Source of the DNA: Hydractinia symbiolongicarpus
Taxonomy: Eukaryota > Cnidaria > Hydrozoa > Anthoathecata > Hydractiniidae
NCBI RefSeq assembly: GCF_029227915.1
Contig: NC_079878.1
Span: forward strand, 11,782,001 to 11,846,000
Reading direction: 5' to 3'
DNA length: 64,000 nt
Shown here: positions 14,102 through 62,575 of the stretch, in pieces
Layout of the letters: each line of letters opens with the position of its first letter
Numbering within the stretch: the stretch's first letter is position 1
Made by a program: the position numbers and the translations under genes
The notes under the pieces: generated by a model
The model's input: the letters and a program-made list of their open reading frames with translations, nothing else
The model's database searches: none
What the model was told of the DNA's origin: nothing

Positions 14102-15212
14102 GAATTTCCGCGCCCGAAGGCGTAGGAAATTCTTTAAAACCGTCGTTTTTTCTTTTGGAGCATTTTTTGAGAAAAAATCGACCCTGGGATTTCACGTTCC
14201 TCTGATTTTTTGTTACCTAAATGTCATTTTAGGCCAAAATTGGTCCAAAAATTAAAACCACTTTGTTTTCCAAAAAATTGACACAGTTAACAAAAAAAGT
14301 ATGCTGAACATGATTGTGACATCAAAATTTCGATTTTTGGCCACCTTAAATGTCATTTTAGGCCAAAATTGGTCCAAAAATTAAAACTACTTTATTTTTC
14401 ACAATATTTGGCTCAGTTAACAAAAAAAGTATGCTGAACATGATGGTGACATCAAAATTTCGATTTTTGGCCACTTTAAATGTCATTTTAGGCCAAAATT
14501 GGTCCAAAAATTAAAACTACTTTATTTTTCACAAAATTTGGCACAGCTAACAAAAAAAGTATACTGAACATGATGGTGACATCAAAATTTCGATTTTTGC
14601 CCACCTAAATGTCATTTTAGGCAAAAATTGGTCCAAAAATTAAAACTACTTTATTTTCGACAAAATTTCGCACAGATCACAAAAAAATATGCTGAACATG
14701 ATGGTGACATCAAAATTTTGATTTTTGGCCACCTGAAATGTCATTTTAGGCCAAAATTGGTCCAAAAATTTAAACCACTTTATTTTCGACAAAATTTGGC
14801 ACAGTTAATAAAAAAAGTATGCTGAACATGATGGTGGTATCAAAATTTTGATTTTTTGCCACCTGAAATGTCATTTTAGGCCAAAATTGGCCCAAAAATT
14901 TAAACTACTTTATTTTCGACAAATTTTGGCACAGTTAATAAAAAAGTATGCTGAACATGATGGTGGCATCAAAATTTCTTTTTTCTCAACTAAATGCCGT
15001 TTAAAACCATAAACGTTTCAATCGGAAGACTTTCAACCATGAATGATAGGCTATAATTTTTGTTCGCAGTTTCTTTTAAAGTGTGTGTTTATTATGACAC
15101 GTTTCGTTTTGTTTGCGTTTGTTGTAAGATGTAATGTCACTTGTCAATTAGCAGGTTGTCATCAAATATTTTGGTAGCGAGCGGAAATTCTTATAGCACC
15201 CAGGGCTTCTTG
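14102..15212 (-). mobile_element. HINE/Helentron-like element, copy 1
   Basis: This matches 35158-36061 in inverted orientation from end to end. One end is a perfect nested palindrome (GAATTTCC, CGCCCGAAGGCG, GGAAATTC) at 14102-14132. The other end carries GCGGAAATTC about 25 bases before a conserved GGGCTTCTTG terminus. Inside are about six tandem units of roughly 120 bp (14215-14990), each with GGCCAAAATTGGTCCAAAAA and GTATGCTGAACATGATGGTG. Internal minisatellite repeats, short subterminal inverted repeats and a terminal hairpin are features of Helentron-associated non-autonomous elements. I assigned strand so that the hairpin lies at the 3' end. No protein is encoded. Confidence 0.6.
14215..14990. 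repeat. About 120-bp tandem repeat, six units
   Basis: Each unit contains AAATGTCATTTTAGGCCAAA, a stretch with ACTACTTTATTTTCGACAAA, GGCACAGTTAACAAAAAAAG and TATGCTGAACATGATGGTGA. Units are mostly 80-95 percent alike by eye. The same unit is repeated about four times in the inverted copy at 35450-35940. Confidence 0.8.
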
Positions 15213-22942: not shown

Positions 22943-22954
22943 TGGTAGCAGAGG
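22943..22954 (+). promoter_or_regulatory. Primer binding site, initiator Met-tRNA
   Basis: TGGTAGCAGAGG begins three bases after the LTR. It is complementary to the 3' end of animal initiator Met-tRNA, a primer commonly used by LTR elements. Confidence 0.85.
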
Positions 22955-22966
22955 CTAGTTAAGAAG

Positions 22967-25900
22967 ATGGCAACTGGAACAATCATGATGGCACAAAAGT
23001 ATGGATTGCCCCAATTTTCTGAAGATGGGGATTTTATGGGAAGTAGTTACAGAACTTCCAAAGAAGAAACAAGGACCAGTTGTTTATTTGAGTTTAAATT
23101 CAGAAGTACGTCAGCCTTAACGAAAGAAGAATTGAATGAAGAAGATGGTTTAAATAAACTTGTTAATAAAATAAAAGAACTATATGGCATTACTGAAGAT
23201 CAAGCAATGTTCAATGTTTACGAAAAATTTGAGACCTTTCACCGTTCCAAGACAATGTCGATTGGTGATTATGTAAATGAATTTGAACAGTTGAATCAAA
23301 AACTTAAGAGTTTTAAAATTGAGTTACCAACTGCAGTTCTTGCATATCAACTACTAAAAAATGCACATGTACCGAAAGCTACACGTGAACTAACACGTGC
23401 TACGGTTCCTTCCCTCACATACGACTCTATAAAAAAACAGATAAAAGCCATTTATGATCAATGTGCTTAAAGTGAAAGTAGTAGAGACAGTAATGATATT
23501 GGTGTTGAGCAAGAAGTATTATATGGTCAAAAGTTTGACAGACGACGTTTTAACAATTGGAACACTCGTGGACGTGGCAGAGGTGGTAAATAGTTCAGTG
23601 CTAAAAGAAGCCAGTACAACCCTAATGGTCCTGATGGACATCCATTGCAATGTCCCCATTGCAAATCTATAATGCATTTCATGAATGACTGTCCTGATAA
23701 GAATAAAGGAAGCAAAGGGCAGGATAAAGTACATGTGCAGTTTTTCGCAAAGGGTGTGGAACAATGCTTTATGGAGCAAGTTGTGTCTGAGTCTTTGAAT
23801 TGTGCTTTACTAAACTCAGGATGTTCATCGACAGTTTGTGGTAAAAATTGGCTTGACTGTTACATAGACACTATGCCAGAAGGGACAGCTTTAGCTGAAA
23901 GTAAGAGTAACAAGTCCTCTAAATTTGGGCCAGGTGGAAGCTTCCCCTCAGTTAAAAAAGTTAACATCTCTGTTAATATGGCTGGAATGCAAGCCCATAT
24001 TCTTACTGATGTTGTCGATTGTGAATTACCATTATTGTTATCAAAAAAGAGTCTGAAAGCAGCTAATAGCCAACTTGATTTTGTTAATGATAAAGTCACT
24101 ATGTTTGGAAGAGACATTCCTTTACAACACACGTCAAATGGCCATTACTGTATACCTCTTACACCTAAGCAAGTTGCTGTTAACAAAACATCTCCGGGCG
24201 TAAATGCCACCAGAGTTATATTCACAGTCAACGATCTCACTGTAAAATCACCTGAAGAAAAATGCAAAATAGCTACAAAGCTTCACAAACAGTTTGGACA
24301 TCCCATAGACAGCAGCAAACTGAAAACTCTTCTCCAAGATGAAAATGTTGAAGATAAAGAGTTATTTCAGCAAATTGACAATGTTACAAACTCTTGTGAC
24401 ACATGCAATAGATATATATGAAGGCTCGATCAAGGGCCAATTGTCTCACTACCAATGGCCTCAGATGTCAATGAATGCCTTGCCATGGACCTAAAATTCC
24501 TGACAGTTAATCATAAAAAGTTAACCATACTTCATATGATTGATGTGTTCTGTAGATACAGTGCATCAACAATTATCAAATCCAAGAATAAGGAAATTAT
24601 CGTAGACACAATTCTCAAGCACTGGGTTGCTATTTTTGGCACACCAAACTCGATTTTTTCAGACAACGGAGGGGAGTTCAACAACGAGCTCTTAAAGGGG
24701 CACTCCAGTGAAAAAAAATATTTGAAAAAAATGTTATTTTAAGAAGACAATACATAAATATGTCAGAATAAACCTTTTACAATCGTTAAAAATCTTTATT
24801 TATACCTTAATGGGGTCTGTAAACATCTTCAATTTTAAATAAATTTGCAAGGTTGCGTAAAGTTGAGAGGACTAGGTCCGAATAAATAGGCATACGTCAC
24901 ATCGTGCAGACAGTCCGTGAGCTCAGCAGCACACCTTCTAAAAGTTTGTTTACTTAGTGTTTATATTGTTCGTTGATAAAACGTCTTGTAGTAATGACGA
25001 AGATTTTAACTTAGAAAACATAGAATAGGATAATTAGGATAAACATAGAATAGGATAATCTCTTCATGAAAAAGACTTTACAAAGCTACAGCCACACGAC
25101 TTCGAACCTCTTGTGTCTCACAAGGGAGAAATTAATAATGATGCAAAGTGACAAGGTGTCTTCTACTAACTCAAAACAACGTTCTGAGCAAAATATTTTT
25201 TAAAGAAATAGAAAATATATTTAATTGGCTTTTTTTTAACATTCTTTCCATCACAAAAACTTTATCATTTGTTTCAGTAAAAAAACTTTCTTACTTACAA
25301 GCCAATTTATTTTTATTTCACAATTCAGCAATATTTTTCATCCGCACATGCTTTTTTGCACACAAATGCAAACAAATTTTATGTAACGTTGAAATTTTCA
25401 CCATGATGGAGGACCATTCAAATGCGTGATCGAAAGATCGAATAATGTTCGGGTCGTGATAAGTTGGTAAAACATGAGTATTAATATTGTACAAATAAAA
25501 ATCATTCTTATGATTATGGTAGGTCATAAATGCGTTGCAGAAGCTACTGACTTATAAGTAGTTGTTTTGACAAAGCTGTTTTAGAAACTGCATTATCAGC
25601 ATCACATGCAGCCTTAAACATCACAAAGATTGAAGAAAATGAGTACATTTACCCCCTGAAAATATTCGGCATGTCCTTCCATAAAAAAAGCTTCTTTTTT
25701 GAAAAACAAAGAATAGAAACTTGATCGCTACGAAAGATGTGTAACTACTTTCTGAGTACGTATATAGCAAAAAAGAAAAAAGTGATTTTTACTGGAGTTC
25801 CCCTTTAAGAGATGTAGCAGAACTGTTAAACACAAGAGTGTATACAACAGCAGCAGAATCTCCATGGTCAAATGGTGTATGTGAGCATCATAATTTCATC

Positions 25901-28302
25901 CTGGAAAATATGATTATGAAAATTGTTGACAACACTAGTTGTTCTGTTGAAAATGCACTTACATGGGCCAATTGTGCCAAGAATGCGTTGCATAATAACC
26001 GTGGATTCAGTCTCAATCAGCTTGTATTTGGACGCAATCCAAATCTCCCATCTGTGCTTACAGCCAAGCCTCCTGTTCTTCGAACAGTTACACCCAGTCA
26101 ATTAATTGCGAATCATCTGAATGCCCTGCATGTTGCTCGCAAAGCATTCATTGAAAGTGAATCTTAAAACAGCACTCAGTCATCAAACAAAGATTTTTAT
26201 AATGGTGAATTGGTATACTATAAGCGACGTGGAGAGAAAGAGTGGAGAGGACCTGGTGTAGTCCTTGGCATTGATGGAAAACAGGTCCTTGTTAAACATG
26301 GAGGAACTTACGTTCGAGTGTCACTTGCAATCAGTGAAGGGACACCGTAGTTGTCAGGAAAGCACAAGTGGAAACCCTCAAGTGAAGAATACTACAACCA
26401 AAGAAGAAGATTGCTTTGATGAGATTTCAAACAGCGTAGCGAATGGGTTGCTTGAAAGCGTAAACGATTTTGATATCAACACATCGTCAGAAGTTGTACT
26501 TGATGACATTCCTAGTGATCATGCCGTAAATACAAATGAGATCCCTGCTATTTCCCATGCTCAGGTTGAAACAACACATCAATCAAGCATTGAGCAAGAA
26601 GTTTCTAACACACCTCGCAATGAACAGTCATTGACAGTGACCCTTCCAAAAGTCAGGGAGAGGGTTAGGTTTATTGATCCTGATACTAATAAACTTGCTG
26701 AATTTATGGTTGTTCGTCGTGCTGGTAAAGTAGGAAAATCTGGAGTTGGAGCATATAAGAATTGGTTGAATGTCAAAGATGTTAAAACCAAAGCCATGAA
26801 ATCAATTGACTTTGAAAACATTTTGGATTGGGAAAAGGTAAACACAGAGTCAGTATATAATGTAGAAACGTCATGTGATGTTAGTGAAGCTCAACATAAA
26901 GAATTAACTAAATGGCGTGATTACAATGTTTATGATGAAGTTGAAGACAAAGGGCAAGACATAACCACAACCCACTGGGCGATATCTGAGAAAAGTCATG
27001 ATGGTAAAACAGAAATTAAAGCACGATTAGTGGCACAAGGTTTTGAGGAGGACACTATTGGTATACGAACAGACTCGCCAACTGTAAACAAGGAGAACTT
27101 TCGTCTTGTGTGTAATATTGGTGCAACCCATGGATGGAAAATTTTACAGTCTTGATATTAAAGCTGGGTTTCTTCAAGGTGCCAAGATTGATAGAGTCGT
27201 ACATCTTCTTCCACCACCAGAAGCTAACACAGACAAGTTGTGGAAACTAAAAACACCTGTTTATGGCTTGTGCGACGCTTCACGCGCTTGGTATGAGACA
27301 TTATCTAACGAATTCGATAAAGTTGGAGCTACAAGAAGCATTTATGACAATGCATTATTTTTCTGAAGAAAAGAAACTCTCAAAGGTGTAATTTGCTGTC
27401 ATGTTGACAATTGCTTCTTCGTTGGAAGTGATTTGTTTCATGACACTATCATTGCACATTTACGCAAGACATTCTCACTTAGTAAAGAGAATTCAAAGTC
27501 GTTTAACTTTTTGGGATTAGAAATTGAACAAGAGTGTGGTGCACTAATTATTCATCAGCATAATTACATTAGTAACATTTCACCAATTAATTTGACCAAT
27601 AGTACGTCTACAATTCCACTTACAAAATATGAAGCACGTCAAATTCAATGGGCAGCAAAACAAACTAGACCTGATGCTGCTTACGTTGCCTGTGATTTAA
27701 GCACTCGCATAAGACATGGAACAGTTGCTGATGCTCGTAGAGCTAACAAGCAGCTGAAACATCTGCAGCAAACTGAAGTAAAGATTGTTATTTCAAACAC
27801 TGGAGATGTTAAAGCATCATCGCTCATACTTTTCAGTGATGCATCACATGGAAATTTAATTAATGGCGGCTCACAAGGTGGATTTGTTCTGCTACTGCAT
27901 GGTGAAAGCAAAATTCTGCCAATTATTTGGAGATCTCACAAGTTAAAATGGGCTGTTAAAAGCGCCATGGGTGCGGAAACCATGGCTCTCTTAGAAGGTG
28001 CGGAACATGCTATGTTGATTAGATCCCTAATTAAAGAGATTTTTTCAGTTGATATACCAATTATCTGTATATCAGAAAATAAATCACTTGAGGAAGCAGT
28101 CAAAAATACCAACGTCATAGAAGATAAACGATTGTATATTGATATTTGTGCACTTCGTGAGATGGTCGAAAAAGGAGAAATGGGGGAACTCATTCTTACG
28201 AAATCAAGTGATCAGGTTGCTGACTGTCTTACGAAAGGCACTGCTTCAGCTGAAAACCTGCTACGTATACTATCCGGTAGAGAACAGTTGAAATACCGTT
28301 AA
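22967..28302 (+). pseudogene. Copia Gag-Pol polyprotein remnant
   Basis: Gag runs from the ATG at 22967 to an in-frame stop at 23468, and a second stop lies near 23588. The same frame resumes with a CX2CX4HX4C zinc knuckle (about 23645-23690). The protease motif reads LLNSG instead of LLDSG (about 23806), so the catalytic Asp is lost. The integrase has the HX3H...CX2C zinc site (24280-24415), a TGA at 24419, then the catalytic core to 24695. The core resumes after the inserted element at 25805 and includes the late Glu region. The frame shifts around 26300-26345 and again near 27110. RT has LDIKAGFLQG, but the catalytic box is HVDN rather than H/YVDD. RNase H (27830-28240) ends at 28302. It cannot encode an active enzyme set. 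Confidence 0.92.
24696..25804. mobile_element. TTAA-flanked non-autonomous DNA transposon (piggyBac-type MITE)
   Basis: Inserted in the Copia integrase. TTAA occurs at both edges (24692-24695 and 25805-25808). The ends are inverted repeats: AGGGGCACTCCAGTGAAAA on the left against the complement of an AGGGGAACTCCAGTAAAAA end on the right. Element plus one TTAA is 1,113 bp, a multiple of three, and the integrase frame is continuous when the insert is removed conceptually. TTAA duplication is the hallmark of piggyBac. No transposase frame is present inside. Confidence 0.88.
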
Positions 28303-30047: not shown

Positions 30048-33000
30048 GATCTATTACATGTATTACAGTATATTACTAAGTATTACAGTGTATTACCAAA
30101 TACTACAAAATATTACAGTTAGATGTTACAAGTACTACAGTGTATTACCGAATACTACAAGGTATTACAGTGTATTACTGAATACTACAAAATATTACAG
30201 TATATTACTAAGTACTACAGTGTATTACTGAATACTACAAAGTATTACAGTGTATTACCGAATACTACAAGGTATTACAGTATATTACTAAGTATTACAG
30301 TGTATTACTAAATACTACAAAATATTGCAGTATATTACTAAGTACTACAGTGTATTACTGAATACTACAAAGTATTACAGTGTATTACTGAATACTACAA
30401 GGTATTACAGTGTATTACTGAATACTACAAGGTATTACAGTGTATTACTGAATACTACAAAGTATTACAGTGTATTACTGAATACTACAAAGTATTACAG
30501 TGTATTACTGAATACTACAAGGTATTACAGTGTATTACTAAATACTACAAGGTATTACAGTATACTACCGAATATTACAAGGTATTACAGTGTACTACAA
30601 GGTATTACAGTGTATTACCGAATACTACAAGGTATTACAGTGTATTACTGAATACTAAAGGGATACTACAAAGTATTACAGTGTATTACTGAACACTACA
30701 AGGTATTACAGTGTATTACTAAATACTACAAGGTATTACAGTATACTACCGAATATTACAAGGTATTACAGTGTACTACAAGGTAATACAGTGTATTACC
30801 GAATACTACAAGGTATTACAGTGTATTACTGAATACTACAAGGTATTACAGTGTATTACTGAATACTACAAAGTATTACAGTATACTACCGAATATTACA
30901 AGGTATTACAGTGTACTACAAGGTATTGCAGTGTATTACCGAATACTACAAGGTATTACAGTGTATTACTGAATACTACAAGGTATTACAGTGTATTACC
31001 GAATACTACAAGGTATTACAGTATATTACCGAATACTACAAAGTATTACAGTGTATTACTAAATACTACAAGGTATTACAGTGTATTACTGTATACTACA
31101 CAATATTACAGTATATTACTAAGTACTACAGTGTATTACTGAATACTACAAGGTATTACAGTGTATTACCGAATACTACAAAGTATTACAGTATACTACC
31201 GAATATTACAAGGTATTACAGTGTACTACAAGGTATTACAGTGTATTACCGAATACTACAAGGTATTACAGTGTATTACTGAATACTACAAGGTATTACA
31301 GTGTATTACCGAATACTACAAGGTATTACAGTATATTACCGAATACTACAAAGTATTACAGTGTATTACTAAATACTACAAGGTATTACAGTGTATTACT
31401 GTATACTACACAATATTACAGTATATTACTAAGTACTACAGTGTATTACTGAATACTACAAGGTATTACAGTGTATTACCGAATACTACAAGGCATTACA
31501 GTATATTACCGAATACTAAAGGGATACTACAAAGTATTACAGTGTATTACTGAACACTACAAGGTATTACAGTGTATTACTAAATACTACAAGGTATTAC
31601 AGTATACTACCGAATATTACAAGGTATTACAGTGTACTACAAGGTAATACAGTGTATTAGCGAATACTACAAGGTATTACAGTGTATTACTGAATACTAC
31701 AAGGTATTACAGTGTATTACTGAATACTACAAAGTATTACAGTATACTACCGAATATTACAAGGTATTACAGTGTACTACAAGGTATTACAGTGTATTAC
31801 CGAATACTACAAGGTATTACAGTGTATTACTGAATACTACAAGGTATTACAGTGTATTACCGAATACTACAAGGTATTACAGTATATTACCGAATACTAC
31901 AAAGTATTACAGTGTATTACTAAATACTACAAGGTATTACAGTGTATTACTGTATACTACACAATATTACAGTATATTACTAAGTACTACAGTGTATTAC
32001 TGAATACTACAAGGTATTACAGTGTATTACCGAATACTACAAAGTATTACAGTATAATACCGAATATTACAAGGTATTACAGTGTATTACTGAATACTAC
32101 AAGGTATTACAGTGTATTACTGAATACTACAAAGTATTACAGTATACTACCGAATATTACAAGGTATTACAGTGTACTACAAGGTATTACAGTGTATTAC
32201 CGAATACTACAAGGTATTACAGTGTATTACTGAATACTACAAGGTATTACAGTGTATTACCGAATACTACAAGGTATTACAGTATATTACCGAATACTAC
32301 AAAGTATTACAGTGTATTACTAAATACTACAAGGTATTACAGTGTATTACTGTATACTACACAATATTACAGTATATTACTAAGTACTACAGTGTATTAC
32401 TGAATACTACAAGGTATTACAGTGTATTACCGAATACTACAAAGTATTACAGTATAATACCGAATATTACAAGGTATTACAGTGTACTACAAGGTATTAC
32501 AGTGTATTACCGAATACTACAAGGTATTACAGTGTATTACTGAATACTACAAGGTATTACAGTGTATTACCGAATACTACAAGGTATTACAGTATATTAC
32601 CGAATACTACAAAGTATTACAGTGTATTACTAAATACTACAAGGTATTACAGTGTATTACTGTATACTACACAATATTACAGTATATTACTAAGTACTAC
32701 AGTGTATTACTGAATACTACAAGGTATTACAGTGTATTACCGAATACTACAAGGCATTACAGTATATTACCGAATACTACAAGGTATTACAGTGTATTAC
32801 TGAATACTACAAGGTATTACAGTGTATTACTGAATACTACAAGGTATTACAGTGTATTACCGAATACTACAAGGTATTACAGTGTATTACTGAATACTAC
32901 AAAGTATTACAGTGTATTACTGAATACTACAAAGTATTACAGTGTATTACTGAACACTACAAGGTATTACAGTGTATTACTAAATACTACAAGGTATTAC

Positions 33001-33480
33001 AGTATACTACCGAATATTACAAGGTATTACAGTGTACTACAAGGTATTACAGTGTATTACCGAATACTACAAGGTATTACAGTGTATTACCGAATACTAC
33101 AAGGCATTACAGTATATTACCGAATACTACAAGGTATTACAGTATATTACCGAATACTACAAAGTATTACAGTATATTACTGAATACTACAAGGCATTAC
33201 AGTATATTACCGAATACTACAAGGTATTACAGTGTACTACTGAATACTACAAGGTATTACAGTGTATTACCGAATACTACAAGGTATTACAGTGTATTAC
33301 TGAATACTACAAGGTATTACAGTATATTACCGAATACTACAAAGTATTACAGTATATTACTGAATACTACAAGGTATTACAGTGTATTTCTGAATATACT
33401 ACATAGTAATACAGTGTAAAATACGGGATATTACTATGTACTACACTGTATTACTGTATATTACAAAGATATTATGCTAG
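30048..33480. repeat. 3.4-kb minisatellite, 10/30-bp periodicity with higher-order units
   Basis: The array is built from a 30-bp unit that is itself three related 10-mers (TATTACAGTG, TATTACTGAA, TACTACAAGG and variants), about 110 units in all. Most indels are multiples of 10. A distinctive block starting GTGTACTACAAGG recurs at 30911, 31221, 31772, 32172, 32482 and 33032, that is at spacings of 310, 551, 400, 310 and 550 bp, so there is higher-order duplication. Because 30 is divisible by three, frames stay open by default and encode a decapeptide repeat such as YYSVLLNTTR; none has a gene-like start or context. From 33400 the motif degrades and partly inverts. Confidence 0.95.
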
Positions 33481-33982: not shown

Positions 33983-34077
33983 GCACATCCCCACGATTAT
34001 GTGAATCACAAATTCTTACGTCTTGAACGCAGTCACTTAGCACAGTGTTTATCCGATTTTCAAGGCAATCACTAGAG

Positions 34078-34377
34078 ATGTTGAAGTCGTGTTTACTGCT
34101 TGCTGCTGCATTGGCATTCGTACTGGCTATTCCTCCTCCTAAACCAGAATCCTCGGAGGCAAATCTACCCTGGTGGTGTGGTGGAGCTCAGGATACCTAT
34201 ATCAATCAACACAAAATGGAAAGTCTTTGCTATGAAGAGCGAAGACAGGTTTGTACGGTGAAGAAGTTGCTAATGTTTCGAAAAGTTCTTTGCAAGTTCG
34301 TCCCGTACAAAAAATGCTTTAATGCCAAGAAGATGATCAGCGCTCATTTGAAAAAAGGTCGAGGAAGTAGAACATGA
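34078..34377 (+). CDS. Small secreted basic peptide with five cysteines
   Basis: The ATG at 34078 opens a 99-residue frame. Residues 1 to about 17 (MLKSCLLLAAALAFVLA) are a textbook signal peptide with a likely cleavage after Ala17. The mature part starts IPPPKPESSEANLPWWCGG and has Cys residues in WWC, SLC, QVC, VLC and KKC contexts, with a strongly Lys/Arg-rich C-terminus ending GRGSRT. Upstream GTG codons in the same frame are not starts in a nuclear gene. The stop at 34375 is followed by a donor (after 34386), and an acceptor stands at 34568-34569, so a 3'UTR intron is likely. I do not recognise the family. An antimicrobial or other secreted role is possible, but the odd number of cysteines suggests a dimer or a missing partner. 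Nothing shows toxicity. Confidence 0.7.
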   Translation: MLKSCLLLAAALAFVLAIPPPKPESSEANLPWWCGGAQDTYINQHKMESLCYEERRQVCTVKKLLMFRKVLCKFVPYKKCFNAKKMISAHLKKGRGSRT

Positions 34378-35157: not shown

Positions 35158-36061
35158 CAAGAAGCCCTGGGGGCTCTAAGAATTTCCGCTCGCTACCAAA
35201 ATATTTGATTACAACCTGCTAATTCGTTGTTATCGTGCCAAACATTCGAAGAGGTTTGGTGCTTAAAGCTCTGAAGATAAAACACACAAGTGACATTACA
35301 TCTTACAACAAACGCAAACAAAACGAAACGTGTCAAAATAAACTCACACTTTAAAAGAAATTGCGAACAAAAATTATAGCCTATCATTCATGGTTGAAAG
35401 TCTTCCGATTGAAACGTTTATGGTCTTAAACGGCATTTAGTTGACAAAAAAACAAGATTTTGATGCCACCATCATGTTCAGCATACTTTTTTTGTTAACT
35501 GCCAAATTTTGTCGAAAATAAAGTAGTTTAAATTTTTGGCCAAAAATGACATTTCAGGTGGCAAAAAATCAAAACTTTGATGCCACCATCATGTTCAGCA
35601 TACTTTTTCTATTAACTGTGCCAAATTTTGTGGAAAATAAAGTAGTTTAAATTTTTGGACCAATTTTGGCCTAAAATGACATTTCAGGTGGCAAAAAATC
35701 AAAATTTTGATGTCACCATCATGTTCAGCATATTTTTTTTGTGATCTGTGCCAAATATTGTGGAAAATAAAGTAGTTTTAATTTTTGGACAAATTTTGGC
35801 CTAAAATGACATTTAAGGGGGCCAAAAAATCGAAATTTTGATGTCACCATCATGTTCAGTATACTTTTTTGTTAACTGTGCCAAATATTGTGGAAAATAA
35901 AGTAGTTTTAATTTTTGAACCAATTTTGGCGTAAATTGACATTTAGGTTACAAAAAATCAGAGGAACGTGAAATCCCAGGATCGATTTTTTCTCAAAAAA
36001 TGCTCCAAAAGAAAAAACGACGGTTTCAAAGAATTTCCTACGCCTTCGGGCGCGGAAATTC
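35158..36061 (+). mobile_element. HINE/Helentron-like element, copy 2
   Basis: Inverted relative to the copy at 14102-15212. It begins CAAGAAGCCCTGG, has GAATTTCCGCTCGC just inside, about four ~120-bp tandem units (35450-35940), and ends in the hairpin GAATTTCC, CGCCTTCGGGCG, GGAAATTC at 36031-36061. It is 904 bp against 1,111 bp because it carries fewer internal repeats. Confidence 0.6.
35450..35940. repeat. About 120-bp tandem repeat, four units (inverted copy)
   Basis: Each unit has the complement of the 14.2-15.0 kb unit: CACCATCATGTTCAGCATAC, TTTTGTTAACTGTGCCAAAT, AAATAAAGTAGTTTAAATTT and TTGGCCTAAAATGACATTT. Confidence 0.8.
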
Positions 36062-38376: not shown

Positions 38377-48559
<10,183 letters not shown>

Positions 48560-55979: not shown

Positions 55980-57780
55980 GATCATAGATTAAAAATTATA
56001 ACGCAAACCAAGAGAAACCGAATCTCGTGTGCGCAGTTTTCGCGCGTCTCATGAATCACCGAGACAAGAATGACCTCCATATGTCAGCTACTCGAATTTC
56101 TTAAGTTAGTCGCCGAGCAAAATAGGCCCTCCAACCTGGCACTTGTTATTAGAGTTTTCCCTTTGGATTGGGTCGGAACACATCATTATGCGCCATTATA
56201 ATTGTTTTGAAAGTACTGCTGATTCAGCACAACAGAGACTTTTAGACGGGTTAACATATCAAAATTGCTGAGTGTGAAATCATTTTCACGAAATTGTTTG
56301 GCTCATTTAATTATTAATGAGTTAAGGGCCAATACTTTTGCAAAAACGTACATAGATAAATAAGTATATTTCCCTGCTTTTAATATGACATTCTCAAATA
56401 TTCCAATAATGCCTCGCAGTCTAGTGAAACAATTAGGCATTTTGCCGGAAGCCGGCTAATGAATACCAAAGGAGGACGCAGCCATTTTAGAAATGACGGA
56501 TTGATCTCTATCACTGACTCTCTCTGCTCCAACACCAAGTCCAAGAGGACATTATACAGACCATATTATTGCCTTTTTGACGAAATTTTATTTTTAGTTT
56601 AAACTTACAAAGTGTGTTCCTTTATAACGGTAGCTAGCTAAAGGGTGAACCGTTTTTTGAGCATTTTTTTAAACTATATATAAATTTATGCTGTCATTTT
56701 TGTTTTAAAAATTAGTACAGTCAGGGTAAACGTGTGTAGTTATTAATCAGTAGCTAACTCATTAGTTAGAAGCTATCTTATTTGGGTGTAACATTTGGGG
56801 AAAAATATTTAATTTTTATAATTCTGCCTCTTTTCTGTGCTATACAATGTGAAAAAGATGGTAAATTGTGTTAGATCTCTGTCTGTTTCTGTTGCTTTGT
56901 TTTAACACTAAATGCTTTATTCTCTCCTCCCTAATGACCAATTTGCTGTTAATAATACTAAGTTTTGATGGCACCTATAAAGTGACTTCAAGTAAAGGAA
57001 ACCAAATTAAGGTTAAGAAATTTCCTTCCTTGGGTGTGGTGGCAAACATGTAGCTAGAGCGTATACCGTCCTTACATGAATATCTAGGCGGACGACACAA
57101 ATGTCTGGTGTTAGAGTGATTCAAGCACCAAAAATAGAGTTGGTCGGTCGTCCGGCAAATGATAACTTAAAAATTCGAAAAATTGTATCCAGCCATCATG
57201 GCGCCAATAAATGCAGCCATCAACGCGCGCCATTAAATCGTCGATATTTAATGAAAACTTTAGAACCTTGTTTAAATAGAGTTTCCATGCTCCGTTTTTA
57301 ACTAGTTCTCAGAACCTTTTTCGCATTTTAAAGTGACACACAACAACGATGGTGGGTAATGGGTGTGGGGAGACAACAACCGTATAATATTTTTTTGTCA
57401 TTCTAGTTTTTCCGACTCAGTATATCAAAAATTTTGATCAAATATTAGGGTCGGGCGGGTGACTAACCAAATATTTGTGACGTCTGCTTAAACAAACAGC
57501 TCTAGTGACGATTAGGCAACTCAGCTCGCTTTATAACTTTAAAATTATAAAACAAGTTTGCAAAAATGCCAGTGAACAGAGCAGATGTTTGTGCAGGGTT
57601 GAGCAAAAAATAAATTGCCTAAAATATGGCCTAAAATGTTTGATTTAGCTGAGGCAGTCTGATTGAGCTGAGGCAGTCTAAGGTTTATCATTTTTTGTTT
57701 CTTTTTTGTTCTAGTGGCCCCCAGTGGAAACAATCCACTAACTATAGGTTTTTGTGATTTTCTGGGCTAGCCACTTTAAA

Positions 57781-57874
<94 letters not shown>

Positions 57875-59440
57875 ATAAATTGTGATCTATATCTCAATTC
57901 TGTGATGTTATTATTTCCAAAGCCTATTTTATATATGATTAAAACAATATTTGGCCACTTGTCTTACATGTAACTATTGGCTGCTTGAAACATTGCCATG
58001 CATCTTTCTTTAATGCTCAAAAAGCAGATGCAATATTAGGAAAACTTAGGGAAGCTAATTAGCAAAGAGGAGAGCAAGAAGATCAAAATATTTTTGTTAA
58101 AATATTCTCCAGCCTATCTAATTATATAATAATTCTTTTGTATTTGGTTAATGGTTATATATAAAGATAACAATAGATTATAATGCCATACCCCCACTGT
58201 TCAAAATTTTTGTCATTGGTGAGCAACCCCAGTGATGTGAAGTTGGTAAAATGCTAGATTCTATGTTAACAGAGAACTTTAGCAAGGAAATTGAAATCAC
58301 ATAATTTGAACATTTAGGTAATACAGACAGTATACACTAGCTATATATATATTCTAAATTTAAACCAAATTCAAATTGTCTCCACTAGCAACATTTAGAA
58401 TGTTTTGAAGCATTACTATACATGCATTTTTCCGCCTGTTGATCTGTAAGAGGAGTTTGAGAACATAAAACACCACCTTATCACAAAATTAATCTCTACA
58501 TTTATAACCAGTACAGCATCAGATAAACTTACCCGATTAAGAGAGCCTTCAAAATTCCTAAACATTTTCTGTTCCGACATTGGTAAAAAGTGCATTTCAA
58601 TGCTTTACACATAACCACACTTGAACTTCACGCAAATTTAGCAGTCAAAAAGTTTTTTTAACATTTCAGCAATGTCGATGGTCACTCTATTTGTATTGTC
58701 AACATGGTGTATACCCTGCTTCTTGCTTGTACTTTCTAGACGCTAACTAAAGTGATCAGTTGACAACGGTTATAATCTTCATATTTCCTTTTTCACACAA
58801 CTCTCTTGCAAAAACACTAAACTTCAAAAGTGAGTGTTATGGGGTACATTTAGAGTGTTTAAGTTAAACTAACTGCAATTTTACCTTTTATTTATTCGAT
58901 AAAAAAAGTTAATAACATTTCATAAAGAATATTAAACTTCAGATATGCTTGTCTACATTACTTATACAAAGCTTAACTAGAATTTGGTGGAAAAAGGTAA
59001 ATAATGGAGTAACAGGGTGTAATCCAGCTTTCTCAGTAACCATTAAATGGCTTATTTGCATCTTCTGACATTTAAATTTATTTAAGACAAACCACCATAT
59101 TACCCATAAAGAAGTACATTTTTTGTGGTGATCCTCTGCAAAACTTTTAACGAAATGTCTGTGTTTTTTGTATGGAATTCAAGTTATTTGTCACTATGAT
59201 GCGTTCATGTTGTGCGTTTAAAAATAACAAATCTGATTACTTTACAATATTTTCTATATCTGCAATATTTTTGATTTTATACTGGCTATTTTAAATTCTC
59301 AGCAGTTACTGTGACTGTCATTTACTGTACTTTATTTTCCCTAGATTGAAACTCTGTGTCAAATTATTGTGTTTCTGGTAAATAAACCATACTGAATATT
59401 CTTAGTGTTTAGAGCAACAAAACAATACAAAATATATGTA
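55980..59440. other. Intergenic stretch before second AKT gene
   Basis: No supported gene; includes a (TTA)n microsatellite. It probably contains the promoter and a non-coding first exon of the plus-strand AKT gene, whose position I cannot fix. Confidence 0.4.
57784..57871. repeat. (TTA)n microsatellite
   Basis: About 29 uninterrupted trinucleotide units. Confidence 0.97.
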
Positions 59441-59468
59441 CTCCTGCAGGTAACAAAATTTTTTTGCC

Positions 59469-62400
59469 ATGTCAACCGAACTATACACTGTCAAAGAGGG
59501 CTGGTTGATGAAAAGAGGTATTTTTGTTAAAACTATTTAAATGTATCTTGCTTTATTATATGTCTCTGAATATGTATACAGGATAGTTTTTATTTAAAAA
59601 ATCTATTGTAAAGTCCTGCATGGTGATAATTATAAACTAGTTTCGTATTTTTTACACCTTTTTCTAAGGTGTATACTAATGCTTATTGCACTGGGTACAA
59701 TGTGATAAAGAAGAACGGATAAGTTTTTCAACAACTTAAATTCCTTTCGTTTTCATAAAAACATGCCCTCGTCTTCATTTGCCTGGTTTATCTTTGCTCT
59801 ATGTCAAATATAAAAATTTTTTTCTAATATTACAATTTCTTATTATTTTGAATACAAACCATGCCAGAACATTTTTTTACTGATTTTAAAATGTGCTTAA
59901 AGCCATTTTATTTTATATCATTACTGCTCTTTTAGCCAAAGTTGTATTTTCCAGTTAACTGCATTATAGAAAGTTCACCTAATGTATTTTAGGTAAATAC
60001 ATCAAGAATTGGAGGCCAAGGTATTTTGTTCTTCGCAGTGATGGTTCATTCCTGGGATTTAAAGATAAGCCAAGAGCAGAAATTAATTCTGTTGATCCGT
60101 TAAACAACTTTTCTGTTGAGCGTACGTTAATTAAACTTTTTATTTCACATGTAGTATTTGCTTAAATGAGCACAATGCTCATTTTACTTACTTAAAAGTT
60201 AGTAGATGTTTTTTAATTCACGATTTCTTTTAGATAAAAGTTGGAGTCAGGAAGTCTCTTGATTATTATTATTTTTAATTTTAGGTTGCCTGATTATTAA
60301 AAAAAGTAAACCTAAACCAAATGGATTTATCATCAGGTATACAGCCAAATAAATTCTCACTGTACTGTATATGATTTTGTTATGTGTTAGCCTCCCTAAT
60401 TAGGGAAAAAAGCATGGCAGCAGAAGAAAGTGTTGTAAATTATTAACAATATAACATTGACTGCTGTTGTTATGCTTTTGTAGAATATTATTTACGGCTG
60501 CAATTAGGCCAGTTATTCTGAAAGATAAATATTCCTTTTTTGCATGATAACATAATAAGTATTACTATAATTGCATAATACGTTCAAGGGAATAAAAACT
60601 AAAGATTTCTTATACATGTGTCAAACAAGAGCAAAACAGTGCTGTTACTTCAGAACTTGTAGGGCTTTGAATGTAGGCCTTCACAATGCAAATATTTATC
60701 CAGATTAACACATACGGAAAAATCAGTAAGAAAGTCTAACAAGTGTTCTAATTACGAGGAAAGTGTGGTTAAGATATGTTACAAAATTGTAAAAAATGTT
60801 GCCCCGTGTGGTTAGGCCACAAATAAGTTTGGCCCTGAAACAGCCTTTTTTTAAAAAAATAGTTTTTGGCAAAAAAAAAGTGGAGGGGGCAAGGTCCCCC
60901 AGTGCTACGAACCATACACAATGATAAGAACAAAGTAAAACAATTTTGAGCTTCACCAAATTTTCTATTTTTTTGAGTAAGTTATTATTGGTCCATTGTT
61001 GGCATTACATCTCAGGGTGTCTTTTAAAATTATAAAAAACAACTAGTGTGAACTTTGTCACATATACAGTGATATGGAAGCGGGACCTCTGAATTTCCTT
61101 ATCTCGCAATTGAAGCAAGATTTTGGCTATTTTATTTGTAGTCAAAACGACAGCATTTTAGCTATCTACACTAAAACAAAAGGTGAAAAATTGAAAGAAA
61201 TGTGTTTGAATCAACTTTCATCCGACAAAACTTCCGATAGATTTCCATCTTAAACGGACACTCCCATTTGCTTAGATCTCAGATTTATTGAATAGTCCTG
61301 GTCCTTTTAATGCAGGAGTAAGCCTATTCATAGCCAACCTGACCATCCTAGCTAATTCACCGACTCTTGACTTAGTTAAAAGAACTACATAGACATGAAT
61401 CTCTATTGCCTAGCCCCTTCATTGTTGGTAACCAGGTCTTACACAAGAAATCCAGCCATGCGGTTGGTTCTTAACTAATACAGAGGTGAACGCCGACGGA
61501 ATATGGATGAAGCAAGTCTGCAAAACTGCACTTACACGCAGATCAGACACACATAATTTTTTTCAAGCACAAGTGACTTTACAAATAATAATAATAATAA
61601 TAATGCAAACTTAAAAACTTATTTTGTTTTATATGTTTTAAGTTTTCTTTAGCAACATTTTTGCAATTGAATTGGCTTATGAATAAAATACGCAGCCTTA
61701 CTTTGTGTTTTAACGGCGCCTGACACATTTATTACTTGTGGTAAGTGTGATCATGATTATGAAACTTCCATGATGGCACATGGCGTATAAAAACAAAACG
61801 AAATAGATGACGAACGAAGGTTGATTAAGAGAGACAGATTATATTTGAATTATCTCGTTATTTTGCATGTTTCGATTTTTAATTTTTGAAGTTATAATAG
61901 GGGAGATGTAGGTACAGAAACGTGCTTATTTGTTTTATATGTTAAAGGCTTTTGCAGTCTCCAGTGTTTGGGGTTCAATGGTCAAATCGTCCCACCTTTT
62001 ATAAACATGCCAAAATACTTTCTAGGTGTGCGATCATACGCATGCGAAAAACAATAATGGCATGTGCGGAGGCGTCATTCCTGTCCAAGCCTGATGATTA
62101 ATATCTTCTTTGTGCTTCATACCTTGGTTACTGTTGGTTACTTGCAATGATATAAGCTACAAAGGTCCTATTGAAATATGACTTCTTATTTTAGATGTTT
62201 TCAACTTACAAAATTTGTTAATAGGACTTTCGCTGTCGATTCCTCTTCTGACAGGTAATTTTTTTCCTTTGATTTTGATTTAGTACTGTTGTTTGCTGTT
62301 TTACCTTGTTAAATCTTTGTATTAGGGAAGATTGGATAAATGCCATTGAAGATGTTTCTAATCGAATGAAGAAAGAAGAGAAAGCCAGAGATGGTGCTAT

Positions 62401-62575
62401 ATCCTCCACCCATGATAGCTATGATTCTTCAAAGATGGTAATAACGCAAGACTTGGTGTACATTAGTAGCGTTATAACGGACTTTTTGCTTTAGTTTGTT
62501 TTATTTTTATTTAAATTTTAGACTTTGGAAGATTTTGAAATCCTGAAGGTTTTAGGAAAAGGCACTTTTGCCAAA
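59469..62575 (+). CDS. AKT: Second AKT/PKB gene, 5' part (PH domain and start of kinase domain), runs off window
   Basis: Exons: 59469-59517, 59993-60121, 60285-60336, 62195-62254, 62326-62437, 62522-62575, all GT-AG, 456 nt or 152 residues. Exon lengths match the minus-strand AKT (49, 123/129, 52, 60, 115/112, 54) with identical phases, so the two are paralogs. The PH domain has [20 protein letters not shown] with the PIP3-binding Lys15, Arg24, Arg26 and Arg87. Residue 18 is Lys where AKT proteins normally have Glu (human Glu17). The linker is rich in Lys/Glu and Ser. The kinase domain begins [18 protein letters not shown], where the third glycine of the loop is Ala151. An acceptor at 59448-59449 shows a 5'UTR intron. 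The next exon (beginning at the beta-2 Val) must lie beyond the window. Confidence 0.95.

Follow-up and report, generated by a model that had tools for sequence, protein, structure and literature searches.

The window analysed here, 64,000 nucleotides of DNA from Hydractinia symbiolongicarpus, contains a divergent AKT gene on the reverse strand (gene 1), the first six exons of a second AKT gene on the forward strand (gene 2), and several repeats and open reading frames (Table 1). A third AKT gene (gene 3) lies in the flanking DNA, of which 235 kb was scanned (100 kb on the upstream side of the window, 135 kb on the downstream side).

Table 1. Features in and beside the window, in window numbering.
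Feature	Position	Strand	Remarks
Array of a 130-base unit	14204-14978		Similar unit to that of the array at 35534-35960, opposite orientation
Run of long ORFs	22949-28302	+	Copia-type retroelement-like by eye
Tandem array	30052-33474		30-base unit, ~119 copies
ORF	34027-34377	+	99-aa protein, several Cys, start resembling a signal peptide; Pfam gave no match up to E 0.01
Array of a 130-base unit	35534-35960		Opposite orientation to the array at 14204-14978
Gene 1, divergent AKT paralog	38377-48559	-	16 exons, 513 aa, Glu17, lacks canonical C-terminal hydrophobic motif
Gene 2 upstream flank	56185-59468	+	Blocks 88-93% identical to gene 3 upstream flank
TTA repeat	57784-57870		Perfect, 29 units, 5' of gene 2
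Gene 2 (K17 AKT) exon 1	59469-59517	+	Start codon to split Gly codon; gene 3 boundary identical
Gene 2 exon 2	59993-60121	+	Lys codon AAA at 59995-59997 (AKT1 residue 17); GAA in gene 3
Gene 2 exon 3	60285-60336	+	PH domain
Gene 2 exon 4	62195-62254	+	PH domain; T82K and E85N (AKT1 numbering)
Gene 2 exon 5	62326-62437	+	End of PH domain, linker
Gene 2 exon 6	62522-62575	+	Glycine loop GKGTFA, G162A
Gene 2 exons 7-16 (ten)	Past window end, to 71834	+	Flanking DNA
Gene 3, third AKT, Glu17	108526-117979	+	~37 kb downstream of gene 2, outside window

Gene 2 has 16 exons with 469 codons and a stop codon (71832-71834 in window numbering), and its reconstructed 469-residue product is identical at every residue to the NCBI protein P0001, annotated as 'RAC-beta serine/threonine-protein kinase-like [Hydractinia symbiolongicarpus]'. 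Exons 1-6 (to 62575) form a single open frame with GT-AG borders. Exon 1 ends in AAAAGAG and is followed by gtattt; intron 1 ends in tattttag, after which exon 2 begins GTAAATAC. The spliced codons AGA GGT AAA TAC read Arg-Gly-Lys-Tyr, with Lys as residue 18 of the protein and the counterpart of AKT1 residue 17. The exon borders and the identity with P0001 thus bear out the same splice reading in a preliminary description of this DNA, which had placed Lys at AKT1 position 17. The junction is shared by gene 3, whose exon 2 nevertheless begins GTGAATAC and encodes Glu, so the Glu/Lys difference comes down to one base, GAA versus AAA, at 59995. The preliminary description had also raised the possibility that gene 2 decays into a pseudogene downstream. 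Its ten further exons are intact to the stop codon, and the 469-codon frame with its 15 GT-AG introns shows no internal stops, frameshifts or broken splice sites.

As a single assembly was examined, the A at 59995 might have arisen by misassembly or be an allele that is rare and private to the sequenced clone. Such an origin is very improbable, given 44 further replacements in gene 2 and the reported PacBio HiFi coverage of 66x, which makes a base error unlikely provided that the window stems from the published assembly or from its successor (PMC10411563, available portions). P0001 apparently comes from the same assembly and therefore provides no independent check of Lys17. For the charge reversal to be called 'fixed', as it had been, one assembly gives no support.

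The base change could also act on the RNA. Removal of intron 1 rebuilds a strong donor, GAG/GTAAAT, where exon 2 (129 nt, in frame) begins, an arrangement that would permit recursive splicing or exon skipping. The rebuilt site scores 10.1, a value exceeded by 16 of the 45 donors of the three genes; it improves on the GAG/GTGAAT of gene 3 (7.8) and on the real exon 1 donor (8.6), and exon 2 could be removed with loss of the PH domain. However, the layout recurs in gene 3, where the score is moderate, and annotated P0001 retains exon 2. A splicing effect is a far-fetched account of the Lys codon.

Gene 2 is predicted to encode a complete, intact AKT/PKB kinase. An N-terminal PH domain (Pfam, 62.7 bits) is followed by an AGC-type kinase domain (Pkinase, 241.6; Pkinase_C, 28.4). 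The product keeps the catalytic Lys, HRD, DFG, T308 loop and turn motif, and its hydrophobic motif, FSSFSF, fits FxxF[S/T][F/Y]. The PIP3-site residues named in PMC8379990 (K14, R23, R25, N53 and R86) are all unchanged. In a tree of 46 hand-picked rows, P0001 is sister to P0002 (100/98) within a 14-row clade that includes the Hydra vulgaris AKT (100/99).

To judge from gene structure and flanking DNA, gene 2 is a young tandem duplicate of gene 3, the canonical Hydractinia AKT. Both genes have 16 exons, equal in length save the last, and similarity between their flanks begins ~3.3 kb before the ATG (counting blocks of more than 100 bases at the expected offset). Equal exon lengths and matching flanks point to a tandem segmental duplication. 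A whole-genome search, in which 91 of 327 candidates were scored, placed exons with at least 70% identity to P0002 only in this single cluster, on contig C4; elsewhere in the genome the highest identity listed is 59%. P0002 had been considered as an other-species ortholog of the K17 gene, an assignment dropped with the finding of gene 3, which differs from P0002 at 3 residues. Three residues common to genes 2 and 3 and absent from P0002 hint that the duplication may have followed the divergence from the lineage that P0002 comes from. The two genes differ at 45 amino acids over 466 aligned codons: gene 3 has Glu17 and Asp325, whereas gene 2 has Lys17 and His325.

Gene 1 had been taken as the sister gene in the preliminary description. 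Its Glu17 was read correctly, but the comparator was wrong, as the closest relative of gene 2 is gene 3, outside the window. With a branch of ~1.1 changes per site in the tree and no canonical hydrophobic motif, gene 1 is unsuitable for comparison and was set aside. Gene 1 and P0023, which are 98.1% identical, represent an AKT paralog from the gene 2 cluster that differs from gene 2 in having Glu17 and no canonical hydrophobic motif. In place of the canonical S473-region motif, gene 1 ends in a basic tail, and a near-identical tail is present in the cDNA-like P0023.

P0001 is the sole match to gene 2 among the listed proteins. The source contigs of P0002 (at most 2798 bases) and P0023 (at most 1766 bases) are shorter than the 9-10 kb spanned by genes 3 and 1, and so look like cDNA. 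For gene 2, protein searches, which have limited sensitivity, listed no transcript-like copy among either the full-length matches or the fragments of 84-266 aa; this weakly suggests that gene 2 expression may be low or narrow.

Loss of E17 in AKT drives human overgrowth and cancer. Among 223 different proteins, position 17 is Glu in 222 and Lys in one, P0001; these are best matches rather than a random sample, pooled with overlaps from the best 120 of 133, 15 more, and the best 120 of 6250. In the alignment used for site counts, which holds 205 of 224 rows (19 rows under 400 residues were left out; the 224 include the reconstructed gene 1 model), E17 occupies 204 of 205 rows. The titles and abstract openings surveyed, including those on AKT in Hydractinia or Hydra and on duplicated cnidarian AKT, contain no report of a natural K17 AKT. 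Gene 2 resembles human AKT1 E17K, the mutant of cancer and Proteus syndrome (structures such as 8uvy and 8uw2; the 8uvy chain was aligned over the PH segment), in having Lys at this site with PIP3 contacts kept. Unlike in the human mutant, Lys17 in gene 2 belongs to the reference sequence of the gene, and the diverged gene 2 also has D325H, E85N, T82K, G162A and other changes.

Where a column is conserved at 90% or more, gene 2 departs by E17K, Q61L, T82K, E85N, G162A, Y229C, E234D, R249W, D325H and I361V (AKT1 numbering, assigned via P0182); a further three departures at such columns are common to P0002 and gene 2. G162A and I361V, like E17K, strike columns invariant in the other 204 aligned AKTs. 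The net charge of the gene 2 PH domain is +9, the highest of 205 AKTs, versus +4 in P0002. On the kinase side of the autoinhibitory clamp, the acid D325 is replaced by His in gene 2. Gene 2 has Gln at E298, where P0002 already has Gln, and retains Tyr18.

Published work on AKT1 bears on several of these sites. In autoinhibited Akt1, according to the available text of PMC8379990, E17 bridges R86, and D323-D325 contact K14, R23, R25, N53 and Q79; mutation of both D323 and D325 yields PIP3-independent activity. Excerpts of PMC9417420 describe an about fivefold rise in the PIP2 affinity of human E17K with unchanged affinity for soluble PIP3, higher activity when the tail is unphosphorylated, and a gain that comes partly through Tyr18. 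In the human mutant, K17 pairs with E298, and a simulation study holds that E17K itself hardly relieves autoinhibition (PMC12724016, portions available). The D325H of gene 2 falls in the same APE-alphaF loop as the D323/D325 double mutant and D323H (PMC8379990 and PMC12724016, in the parts accessible). The published double mutant changes both acids (PMC8379990, same excerpts), whereas gene 2 keeps D323. A further source, PMC9018718, contains no mention of E85, D325 or four other sites. D323 and D325 are called invariant in the accessible part of PMC8379990, yet both vary naturally: 11 of the 205 aligned rows have N, K or R in place of D323.

In the reading preferred here, with a probability of roughly 0.4, gene 2 would serve as a low-threshold AKT beside the normal gene 3, with a PH domain predicted to be released more easily. 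Absence of the E17-R86 salt bridge and a weaker polar clamp would free the PH domain of gene 2 more readily; the freed domain would bind PIP2/PIP3 membranes at lower PI3K activity, and gene 2 would thereby respond at a lower threshold than its normal neighbour. Because Lys17 sits in an intact AKT with unchanged PIP3 contacts, raised membrane binding is a fair prediction, and a lowered PI3K dependence of gene 2 is plausible from its sequence. The lowered threshold itself is a reasoned prediction only. Against it count the Gln at E298, the claim that E17K itself does little for autoinhibition, the unchanged affinity of human E17K for soluble PIP3, kinase-domain changes that may lower activity, and the result that protein searches listed no transcript-like copy of gene 2. 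The PH charge rise of 5 over gene 3 (simulated P 0.02) is a pattern noticed before testing. D325 is variable: 13 of 205 AKTs, gene 2 among them, have Q, N, K, L or H there, so that its loss is tolerated in the 12 others. Concentration of the changes at the PH-kinase interface is not significant: interface residues are changed at 3 of 17 (P 0.22) and polar ones at 3 of 10 (P 0.06), with residue sets picked after the changes were known, and changes are spread over the protein. A stronger proposal, in which Hydractinia has a naturally de-repressed AKT with both clamp faces altered (E17K, E85N and T82K in the PH domain, D325H in the kinase) and raised PH charge, serving as a low-PI3K-threshold copy beside the conventional one, is unlikely. 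Adjoining E17 and K17 copies in a stem-cell and regeneration model would make it possible to examine directly the way in which an E17K-like AKT is tolerated, or put to use, by an animal. Should gene 2 prove inert, it would show a dangerous change buffered by other changes.

As its substitution pattern indicates, gene 2 is kept in frame yet evolving much faster than gene 3. Genes 2 and 3 are separated by dS 0.111 and dN 0.045, and their pairwise dN/dS of 0.40 (bootstrap 0.26-0.65) led to rejection of positive selection, as it permits no claim of a ratio above 1. In the 46-row tree the terminal branches of P0001 and P0002 are 0.16 and ~0, and relative-rate counts for P0001:P0002 with six outgroups range from 35:2 to 17:5. 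The intron distance, 0.058 over 6038 aligned bases, is below the dS of 0.11; introns were not used as a neutral clock because the count covers just the parts that could be aligned, and a local match is lacking for two short introns. Introns show 103 gap openings per 7101 locally aligned bases, a rate that predicts ~20 coding gap openings in both copies together, or ~10 on gene 2 if shared equally. A single coding length difference is found, 9 bases in frame. Of the 45 replacements, 6 hit columns with conservation of 95% or more, fewer than the 31.7% expected (P 0.004). The chance of zero stops after 40-60 random changes is 0.17-0.08, which is weak alone. Few indels and avoidance of conserved columns imply that the gene 2 protein is still under selection, and this sequence evidence speaks against gene 2 being a neutral relic.

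Relaxed constraint explains much of the pattern in gene 2; such drift after a recent duplication has nearly the same likelihood as the low-threshold reading. Gene 2 would then be a redundant copy in which K17 is one of ~40 replacements without selected effect, with any membrane gain offset by other changes. Consistent with this, 36 of the 45 differences from gene 3 map to the gene 2 branch and none to gene 3 (9 are not assignable), the relative-rate count reaches 35:2 with outgroup P0006, and the dN/dS of gene 2 itself is ~0.65-0.8 if synonymous change is split equally. Other non-varying columns were also struck, as by G162A and I361V. Moreover, 60 random substitutions in gene 3 would include exactly E17K with a chance of ~0.018; with many comparable sites, and in a copy that evolves so fast, Lys17 does not stand out statistically. 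On the other hand, the scarce indels and spared conserved columns show that selection persists, and the PH charge changes are all positive (4 of 4), a feature chosen post hoc.

In the kinase half of gene 2, G162A, E234D and R249W may lower its kinase activity. A basic PH domain that grips lipids, joined to a kinase weakened by these changes and K307Q, could compete with gene 3 as a membrane decoy and damp AKT signalling. The opposite shifts in net charge relative to gene 3 (+5 in the PH domain, -5 in the kinase domain) are in keeping with such a role, as are odd residues at the third P-loop Gly and at the Glu of GGELFFH, which presumably reads the P-3 Arg as in PKA. Retention of the catalytic Lys, HRD, DFG, T-loop, turn and hydrophobic motifs argues against it, and a decoy is improbable. 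Apart from these changes, AKT1 Trp80 corresponds to Leu in all three Hydractinia AKTs, and 24 of 205 rows in total have Leu there.
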